Source of the DNA: an uncultured Armatimonadota bacterium | GTDB lineage: Bacteria > Armatimonadota > Fimbriimonadia > Fimbriimonadales > Fimbriimonadaceae | Reading direction: 5' to 3' | NCBI GenBank assembly: GCA_903899015.1 | Contig: CAIUHP010000081.1 | Coordinates: forward strand, 1 to 64,000 | Length of the DNA: 64,000 nt | Shown here: in pieces, positions 19,852-38,153 of the stretch | How the letters are laid out: every line of letters starts with the position of its first letter | How positions within the stretch are numbered: position 1 is the first letter of the stretch | Made by a program: the position numbers and the translations under genes | The notes under the pieces: generated by a model | What the model was told of the DNA's origin: nothing | Databases searched by the model: none | Seen by the model: the letters and a program-made list of their open reading frames with translations, nothing else

Positions 19852-20235
19852 ATGCGAAATTTATCGGTGATATTCGCCGCGGTAGCCAGTGTCATTCTTG
19901 TATCTGGTTGCCGCTTTAAGGGCGTCGAAAGCTTTGAAAAAGCGACCACTCCAGTGGACTACGCTAAGCAAAACGTCGAAAATGGTGTGAAGGGCGATCC
20001 TTATGCCAATGGTGGAATTGCCTACGCTTCGGCAGGCAAGAAGACACACACGCGCTACGGTCTCGGTGCAGATGCTCAATCAACCGGAAAGGTTGATCCG
20101 ATGCTCGACCGTCCTGCGAAGGGTTCGGGCCAACAGCCAGGCGAGCAGGGTGGAGAAGCCGCTGCAGGCCATGGCCAGTCGAATGCTCCTGCAAATCAAC
20201 CAGGTCCTTTAGTGGATAGCTCTTCCTCTCACTAG
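19852..20235 (+). CDS. Small predicted lipoprotein (127 aa)
   Basis: A type II signal peptide, MRNLSVIFAAVASVILVSGC, ends in the lipobox LVSGC, so the mature protein is anchored at the cysteine at residue 20. The remainder is low in hydrophobicity, with a Gly/Gln/Pro/Ala-rich tail that is probably disordered. It follows the oxidoreductase gene by 48 bases and is closed by a strong terminator. No family is recognised. Confidence 0.8.
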   Translation: MRNLSVIFAAVASVILVSGCRFKGVESFEKATTPVDYAKQNVENGVKGDPYANGGIAYASAGKKTHTRYGLGADAQSTGKVDPMLDRPAKGSGQQPGEQGGEAAAGHGQSNAPANQPGPLVDSSSSH

Positions 20236-20257
20236 ATCACGAAAACCAAAATAGATA

Positions 20258-20298
20258 AAGGTCTCGTTCAAATGATTTGAACGGGGCCTTTGCTTTTT
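20258..20298 (+). terminator. Rho-independent terminator
   Basis: A long stem (AAAGGTCTCGTTCAAAT against its near-complement ending GGGGCCTTT) is followed by GCTTTTT. It ends the oxidoreductase-lipoprotein unit. Confidence 0.85.
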
Positions 20299-20338
20299 GA
20301 CACTCACTAACGACTCTCAACAGGAGCGTGAATTGAAA

Positions 20339-21293
20339 ATGTCGACTAGTCCATTTAAAAAGACCCCAATGTTTACTCTTTGGTTTCTGCGTACTGCTTG
20401 GATGCAGTAGTGGAAGCTCCGACCAAGCTACAAGTTCTGGCTCCGCTACCGCCGCATCGCCGGCGATGATGGATGCCGCGAAGAGTGCGCCAAATGGCAG
20501 CTTTCAGGCAGAAAAGTCCGGGAAGAGAACTGAAGCCTCCAACGCACCTCAATTGGCCAATTACGCCAAACCCATGTCGCCCCAAAACACCGTCGTAATC
20601 CCTTCGCGAAAAGTGATTCGTCGAGCTGAATTGGATATACGGGTGGAAAATGTTGAAAAAGCCGAGAAGAAAGTATCGGGCATCATCGAATCAGTCGGTG
20701 GATATACGGAATCGGCCAATAGCACGGACCTGGCATCGACCCATCCGGTAATGACGATTTCTATCCGAGTGCCGGTCGATCTGTTTGATGGAACCATTTC
20801 GAGATTAGAGTCGCTCGGTGTTCGACTTTCCAAGAAGATCAGCTCAGAAGATGTGACGGGGCGAATTGTTGACCTTGATGCGCAACTGAAAACTTTGACC
20901 GCTCAGGCTGAGGTTTATCGAAACATGTTGCGAGGCCGAACCCAGTTGGATGAGGTTTTCAATATCCAACAGCAACTGGCAAACGTTCAAACTCAGATCG
21001 AGCAGATCACGAGTCAGCGAAAGTCACAAGCGGGTCTCGCCGCTCTATCAACGATACAACTCACTCTTGAGCAGAACGCGGTTATCAGTCAACCAACCGG
21101 GGATCCGAATTGGGTGGCTCAATCATGGGCTGAGGCTACGTCAGGCTCAAGTTCCGTTTTGCGTTTGGCATCGATCTTCCTTATGTGGGTCGTTGCTTTC
21201 TCGCCATTCTGGATTCCGGTCTTGCTCATCCTTCGCCGTCTTATGAAGGGTATTCGTACCGGAATTCCGGCTCGACCAACTCATCAACCTTAA
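20339..21293 (+). CDS. DUF4349 lipoprotein with apparent frameshift in the signal peptide
   Basis: The body (ATG 20466 onwards, 275 aa) is a DUF4349 protein: RRAELDIRVENVEKAEKKV, coiled-coil QQQLANVQTQIEQITSQ, and a C-terminal membrane span (SIFLMWVVAFSPFWIPVLLIL). Upstream, the same frame is open back to 20337 and encodes CLLFGFCVLLGCSSGSS, a lipoprotein signal with lipobox LLGC, yet contains no usable start. A start with ribosome site (CAGGAG, then ATG 20339) lies in a different frame, and removing one base from the A5 run at 20357-20361 or the C4 run at 20364-20367 would join them. This is a sequencing or assembly error, a mutation, or +1 frameshifting. DUF4349 proteins are poorly characterised envelope proteins. 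Confidence 0.82.
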
Positions 21294-37278: not shown

Positions 37279-37329
37279 CATGTATGTATTGTATGTAGTT
37301 TTTGAAAACTGTGATACAATACATACATG
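37279..37329 (+). promoter_or_regulatory. 51-bp palindrome over the start of the PIN cassette
   Basis: CATGTATGTATTGTAT (37279-37294) is exactly inverted as ATACAATACATACATG (37314-37329), and AGTTTT/AAAACT (37297-37310) continues the dyad inside. The right arm ends in the ATG at 37327. Such a dyad suits a self-regulated toxin-antitoxin operator; as RNA it would place the start codon in a hairpin. Confidence 0.75.
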
Positions 37330-37716
37330 GAAAAACTCGTTGATAAGATTCGCTCTGTTGGCACTCGATATATCGACATTGCCCGACGAGAAGGCCGTTC
37401 CGAGGTCACGATCCAAGCAGGTGATGTTGTCCGAGAGCTGAGCCTTGTCAATCGGACACCAAATGTGTGCATGGGCTTAACATCTTCTAGGTTCCTCATC
37501 GAAAACCACATTGAGCTCGTGAATTCTGAAGGACCACCGTCTGGTCAGAGTACAACGATGAAATACACCTATCGACTTCGCCAGCCAGAGTCTCCAACGC
37601 CAGGCAAGCCGAGCGGCCTATTGGCCCTAAGGGGCTCGGGTAAGGCTGCATACAAACAATTAGGCGGAGGGGAAGCTTTCCTGAAGTCCGAGCGCGCGGC
37701 GTTCGATCGTTCATGA
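37327..37716 (+). CDS. Putative antitoxin-like DNA-binding protein (129 aa)
   Basis: The start codon is the last element of a perfect 16-bp inverted repeat. The first 60 residues (MEKLVDKIRSVGTRYIDIARREGR..., VTIQAGDVVRELSLVNRTPNVCMGL) look like a small helix-rich nucleic-acid-binding unit; the tail has a basic patch. Its stop overlaps the PIN gene by four bases, the usual arrangement of an antitoxin before its toxin. It does not match any VapB type I recognise and is longer than most VapB proteins, so the antitoxin role is inferred from position. Confidence 0.6.
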   Translation: MEKLVDKIRSVGTRYIDIARREGRSEVTIQAGDVVRELSLVNRTPNVCMGLTSSRFLIENHIELVNSEGPPSGQSTTMKYTYRLRQPESPTPGKPSGLLALRGSGKAAYKQLGGGEAFLKSERAAFDRS

Positions 37717-38153
37717 GCAAAGTCTATTGGGACACGATGCTGTTCATCTACCTGCTCGAAGATTCCGAGCAGTACGGAGACCGAGTCGCCACGATTTATG
37801 AGGCAATGAGAGAACGGGGAGACATCCTCTGTGCCAGTATGTTTACCCTTGCCGAACTCTTGGTCGCTCCTCGGAAAGTTGGAGATCTGGCTTGGGAACA
37901 GCGAATCATCGACTTTTTCAACGGTGGTGACGTGAGAATTTTGCCTTTCGATCTTGGTGCTGCTAAGCAATTCGGTTCGATCCGAGCAGCCGACAAGATC
38001 TCTCCTGCCGATGCCTATCACTTAGCATGTGCCGCTTCAGCGGGAGTGGACTTGTATCTTACAAACGATGCTGTCGTTCGGAAGGCTCAAGTGATTGGTG
38101 TTCACTTTATCGATTCCGTGAACACTTCTCTTTACGGAGGCGAAGTTGTGTGA
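37713..38153 (+). CDS. PIN domain ribonuclease, VapC-like toxin
   Basis: A 146-aa PIN domain with the four acidic residues of the family: D7 in VYWDTMLFIYLL, the Glu in LAELLVAP, D in ISPADAYHLACAA and D in YLTNDAVVRKA. These bind Mg2+ for endoribonuclease activity, often tRNA or rRNA cleavage in VapC toxins. Start ATG overlaps the upstream stop. It overlaps the lipoate ligase by eight bases downstream, so the toxin cassette is embedded in the glycine-cleavage/lipoate region. Confidence 0.88.
   Translation: MSKVYWDTMLFIYLLEDSEQYGDRVATIYEAMRERGDILCASMFTLAELLVAPRKVGDLAWEQRIIDFFNGGDVRILPFDLGAAKQFGSIRAADKISPADAYHLACAASAGVDLYLTNDAVVRKAQVIGVHFIDSVNTSLYGGEVV

Follow-up and report, generated by a model that had tools for sequence, protein, structure and literature searches.

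A DUF4349 lipoprotein gene with start and lipobox in separate reading frames in an uncultured Armatimonadota genome, most likely the result of a single small mutation or assembly slip

Proteins of the DUF4349 family (PF14257) include lipoproteins; a Methylobacterium member combines a lipobox in its signal peptide with a membrane tail, as described in the available part of PMC10924467. When the frame of a prokaryotic gene is broken in one genome alone and homology vouches for the gene, the break is attributed to a sequencing error or to an indel mutation, with error expected more often (available text of PMC3711429). Other genes are expressed across frames. Release factor 2 has a highly conserved shift site, CUU_U, and frameshifting at "hungry codons" has also been described (excerpt of PMC5009743). 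Switching through changes in tract length is known for fliP and pldA of Helicobacter pylori, with tracts of 8-10 bases (accessible portion of PMC11768039), and transcriptional slippage on long A or T runs is known in bacteria (PMC1088944, in the part available).

The window, by which we mean the whole 64,000-nucleotide stretch analyzed here (contig CAIUHP010000081.1 of assembly GCA_903899015.1), contains a gene that resembles the DUF4349 lipoproteins in its domain, its lipobox, and its hydrophobic carboxy end (by eye), but differs from them in that its start and its lipobox lie in separate frames. The match of the frame-0 protein to PF14257 has an E value of 1.3e-47 and 162.4 bits, against a curated Pfam cut-off of 27.7. 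The features of the locus are as follows.

20256-20292, plus strand: hairpin followed by a T run, resembling an intrinsic terminator, 3' of a small lipoprotein gene
20321-20326, plus strand: ribosome-binding site CAGGAG, in a leader common to orthologues G005, G013, and G004 and similar in G008
20333-20335, plus strand: possible TTG start in frame 2; orthologue G005 has ATG-AAA-ATG here
20337-21293, plus strand: open frame of the DUF4349 lipoprotein, frame 0; its first usable start is only ATG 20466
20339-20410, plus strand: reading in frame 2 that starts at ATG and ends at TAG; it gives the amino end of the signal peptide and is out of frame thereafter
20342-20401, plus strand: bases over which possible sites of the frame break were tested; the break can be placed no closer than between start and lipobox
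20357-20361, plus strand: run of five A (A5), not special
20364-20367, plus strand: run of four C (C4), not special
20370-20405, plus strand: hydrophobic core and lipobox, frame 0, CLLFGFCVLLGC
20378-20383, plus strand: CTT TGG in frame 2; holds the CTTT of the prfB shift site, with a sense codon next
20382-20418, plus strand: stable hairpin in the RNA across the lipobox codons; 20382-20420 folds with -18.5 kcal/mol

Frame 0 opens after a TGA at 20334-20336 and stays open to its end at 21293, and it contains no ATG, GTG, or TTG upstream of ATG 20466, so that the signal peptide is not continuous from an in-frame start. The start at ATG 20339-20341 lies in frame 2, which is closed by TAG 20408-20410; this ATG and the Cys codon are 64 nt apart, a distance of the form 3n+1. 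A sequence-only reading of this DNA had described a lipobox frame without a start beside a start and ribosome site in frame 2, and this description is borne out, with all of its coordinates right. A 366-kb sample of the genome, made up of the window and what was readable of 20 stretches, contains 10 coding frames with a lipobox after a hydrophobic core. In 9 of them a start precedes the Cys by 14-45 codons, although one of these is situated far within a protein and is probably no signal peptide; the DUF4349 gene is the only one that is start-less. Because its lipobox is in frame with the DUF4349 domain, and because only 1 of the 10 lipobox frames lacks a start, the mismatch of frames is more than chance.

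Initiation is best placed in frame 2. The leader CTCTCAACAGGAG is found in the window and in three of the four nearest orthologues (G005, G013, and G004), and the fourth, G008, has CTTACAGGAGG instead; this sharing indicates that initiation takes place in frame 2. TTG 20333 and ATG 20339 belong to the same frame and follow AGGAG (20322-20326) by 6 and 12 nt, respectively, the TTG being the better spaced. Frame-2 initiation and an unbroken frame both appear to be ancestral, judging from the orthologous sequences. Upstream lies a gene for a small lipoprotein (19852-20235, 127 aa) without a Pfam family, which was matched in all 20 genomes of the genus and is thus conserved genus-wide. A relative of this small gene lies directly upstream of the DUF4349 gene in 7 of 19 congeners, as judged from coordinates. 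The hairpin at 20256-20292 may give the DUF4349 gene a transcript of its own (one terminator-like hairpin was found, against 0.4 expected by shuffling).

The family comparison covered 42 loci, the window and 41 others; L032 (the same place as L003), two Paenibacillus loci (L033 and L034), and matches without a returned locus stand outside this set. Both Paenibacillus loci have in-frame starts before the lipobox. A lipobox expression matched in 25 of the 42 loci: the window, L028, and 23 others. The match in L028 sits inside a membrane segment, with no signal peptide, and was not counted, nor were the 17 loci without a match; not all members of the family have a lipobox. Among these 17, L018 is truncated at the end of its contig, and L020 and L022 carry a lipobox-like SFGC not caught by the expression. 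In all 23 lipobox-bearing relatives an in-frame start precedes the Cys by 12-45 codons, and a frame break was seen in none of them. An error (or a simple indel), one of three explanations offered by the sequence-only reading, is supported by this absence of the break from 23 of 23 lipobox-bearing relatives among the 41 other loci.

Within the genus, the DUF4349 gene is present in 18 of 20 genomes, that of the window included. No DUF4349 match was found in the other two congeners, so loss of the gene seems tolerable. The nearest named relative is on contig CAILEM010000099.1, from an uncultured Armatimonadetes bacterium. As far as these sequences go, the break would be private to the genome of the window, and as this is one genome of its species, private is to be read at the level of the species. 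One genome is thus broken while the homologues are intact and the body of the gene is conserved. The case resembles the prokaryotic singleton frame breaks treated in PMC3711429 (in the text available) in being a lone case, in its backing by homology and Pfam, and in having no conserved shift site; it differs from them in the position of the break, which falls in roughly the first 20 codons and, being so close to the start, would probably escape a frameshift finder based on codon usage.

It had also been claimed that skipping one base at the A5 or the C4 run fuses the two frames into one signal peptide. The fusion holds, but these two runs are not singled out by it, since 57 of 60 single-base removals between 20342 and 20401 yield an open fused frame. 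Among the 28 distinct peptides that result, removal in C4 ranks 18th and in A5 22nd by the codon usage of the genome, which is a weak guide when so few codons are involved. In alignments to the four orthologues, the best place for the gain of one base is neither A5 nor C4 against any of them; the nearest approach is C4 against G004, scoring 45 versus a best of 49. The best place varies with the orthologue and with whether a one-base gain or a two-base loss is assumed, and the scores for loss versus gain are 71 versus 68 for G008, 49 for both with G004, 39 versus 45 for G005, and 51 versus 53 for G013. The signal peptides of the orthologues vary in length, and the loss of 2, 5, 8, or 11 bases is therefore as possible as the gain of one. 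Attempts to fix the break by codon usage or by alignment to the four orthologues gave no single winning place. Runs of this kind are common: 220 genes (95,436 codons) contain A5 or longer 209 times and C4 or longer 429 times. Within their first 64 nt, 14 genes have A5, 27 have C4, and none has both; the DUF4349 gene, unlike the 220 sampled, has the two together.

Could the two frames be joined during translation? Ribosomes starting at TTG 20333 or ATG 20339 might slip by +1, in a programmed or conditional manner, and so yield the lipoprotein, most plausibly at CTT TGG before the strong hairpin and perhaps when charged tryptophan tRNA is scarce. Frame and direction fit such a shift, and the hairpin starts within the A-site codon of CTT TGG. 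Moreover, the prfB gene of this genome (L082, around 1460-1540) has a short first frame that ends in the canonical CTT TGA, and its body follows in the +1 frame (by eye), so that +1 shifting is probably used in this organism; the DUF4349 gene is like it in having a short first frame, the main product in the +1 frame, and the CTTT string. The hairpin has z = -4.13 against dinucleotide shuffles, for a 39-nt segment chosen afterwards, and z = -2.61 against synonymous recoding, and its stability is matched by only 55 of 41,140 39-nt segments in other genes. Yet an equally stable segment occurs within about the first 120 nt of 14 of 220 genes, and the 91-nt downstream stretch, unlike the strong 39-nt piece, is unremarkable (z = -0.70). 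Over longer stretches folding in the window (z = -0.70 and -1.44) is no better than in the orthologues (-1.31 for G005, -2.65 for G013, and -3.04 for G008). The hairpin is also nearer to the shift site than is usual for a stimulator. Across 26 family loci, structure at the same place has a mean z of -0.03, with 7 loci below -1 and 5 above +1, and hence shows no excess. In this comparison the window has z = -2.61 and G013 -2.43; G013 has a hairpin at the same place as 20382-20418 of the window, in a family that is overall without excess. A family-conserved hairpin, as suggested by G013 and more weakly by G005, was dropped for want of an excess over the 26 loci. The putative shift site fares no better, as CTTTGG occurs in frame 45 times in the 220 genes, its A-site codon is a sense codon, and no stretch resembling a ribosome site precedes it (by eye); CTT TGG thus has neither the slow (stop) A-site codon nor the 5' ribosome-site-like stimulator of a programmed shift. 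Nor is the shift needed by any relative, all 23 having an in-frame start before the lipobox, which leaves no conserved frame transition. The +1 frameshifting proposed by the sequence-only reading therefore differs from prfB in that there is no stop at the shift, no internal stimulator, and no conservation, and we regard it as improbable. A narrower form, in which a lineage-specific shift at the sense CTT TGG, aided by the hairpin and tuned by tryptophan, would make lipoprotein export conditional, is less probable still.

The remaining alternatives invoke the short runs or a later start. Phase variation by slipped-strand mispairing at A5 or C4 would parallel the H. pylori tract genes in that start and body can be joined by a change of length, but the tracts are 5 and 4 bases instead of the 8-10 bases there, with no sign of switching. 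The least homopolymer is taken as 7 nt in the available portion of PMC3711429, and the longest runs at the break, 5 A and 4 C, fall short of it. Runs of these lengths are also found in the first 64 nt of other genes, in the numbers given above, and the four aligned orthologues have neither A5 nor C4 at this place (by eye), so the suggestion of a phase-variable tract is not upheld by run lengths in this genome or in the orthologues, and we consider it very unlikely. Slippage of RNA polymerase on A5, by which a share of the mRNAs would be repaired, is hardly credible: in a large share of genomes, selection against runs becomes evident at nine bases (PMC1088944, as far as its text is available), the run here has five, and A5 or longer is as frequent in the 220 genes as noted above. 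Finally, the true start could be ATG 20466, giving a protein that in this species has no signal peptide. This ATG is the first in-frame start and probably the one that an automatic gene finder would choose. It has no ribosome site upstream, however (by eye), its use would waste an in-frame lipobox and a conserved leader, and 23 relatives carry the lipoprotein signal with its start; we give this reading very little weight.

Whether the genome at large is prone to broken frames bears on the distinction between error and mutation. Of 292 coding segments in the 366-kb sample, 16 have at least 25 open codons before the first start, in a codon-model scan for other frame breaks that is blind to breaks near a start. 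Besides the DUF4349 gene, we viewed 14 of the other 15 by eye (L071 5275-8730 is outside this set); 13 look ordinary, with a chance open stretch, and one is a headless gene, a fragment of the F5/8 type C family in a neighborhood that looks decayed. Overlapping pairs on the same strand were also flagged by the codon model, 57 in all, and many of them resemble ordinary operon neighbors. For the 15 pairs of the window, 20 of 22 proteins were run against Pfam, 7 of them having no family, and no Pfam family split over two frames was seen in these 15 pairs, two gcvP proteins being taken as the known two-subunit form (the other 42 pairs are outside this check). With so few broken frames in the sample, a generally error-ridden assembly is unlikely, which leaves room for a single error.

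Several other places in the genome drew attention in passing. Two open frames on the minus strand of L065 (849-3844) are related, with similar beginnings and different ends, and resemble Rhs-type carboxy-terminal cassettes; the headless F5/8 type C fragment lies opposite and between them. In L064, one of those 42 pairs consists of a gene (225-1166) bearing a prokaryotic N-terminal methylation motif and, continuing from it in another frame, a coding-like stretch (1165-1500) without a Pfam family; 225-1500 is possibly another frame break, or else a chance frame. In the window itself, at 37315-38150, a 131-aa frame without a Pfam family overlaps a PIN-domain gene, and the two are possibly a VapBC-like toxin-antitoxin pair.

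The body of the DUF4349 protein (from query residue 71) is 63.1% identical to that of G005 and 63.6% to that of G013, which are 60.8% identical to each other. Since no stop interrupts the body, and it is as alike to these two as they are to one another, the lesion should be recent or artificial. Private changes are more numerous in the protein of the window than in G005 or G013 in 8 of 8 relative-rate comparisons (17-25 versus 10-17; the comparisons are not independent), a weak hint of relaxed selection, which would favor mutation over error.

Taken together, the locus is best explained as an ordinary DUF4349 lipoprotein gene in which one small frame-breaking indel lies in the signal-peptide stretch, in this genome only. 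We infer that the cause is in the DNA and not in recoding, and put the probability of a one-off indel or an assembly or sequencing error at about 0.88; we saw no mark of recoding or phase variation in the gene, which lacks a long tract, conservation, and, at the shift, a stop codon or stimulator. Between the two components, likewise a matter of judgment, an assembly or sequencing error comes close to an even chance, and a genuine mutation, recent in the strain or population that was sequenced, stands slightly below that. Translation from TTG 20333 or ATG 20339 would run out of frame and end at the stop at 20408-20410, so that the lipoprotein would not be made from the sequence as written; at most, a protein without a signal would be made from ATG 20466.

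A single small mutation or assembly slip is thus the most likely explanation, and not a new way of reading genes. If +1 recoding at a sense codon were real here, it would join prfB as an unusual example from bacteria. As it stands, the locus is mostly a caution: codon usage hardly reveals a break that falls in about the first 20 codons, and such an early break would probably push automatic annotation to a late start, hiding a lipoprotein.
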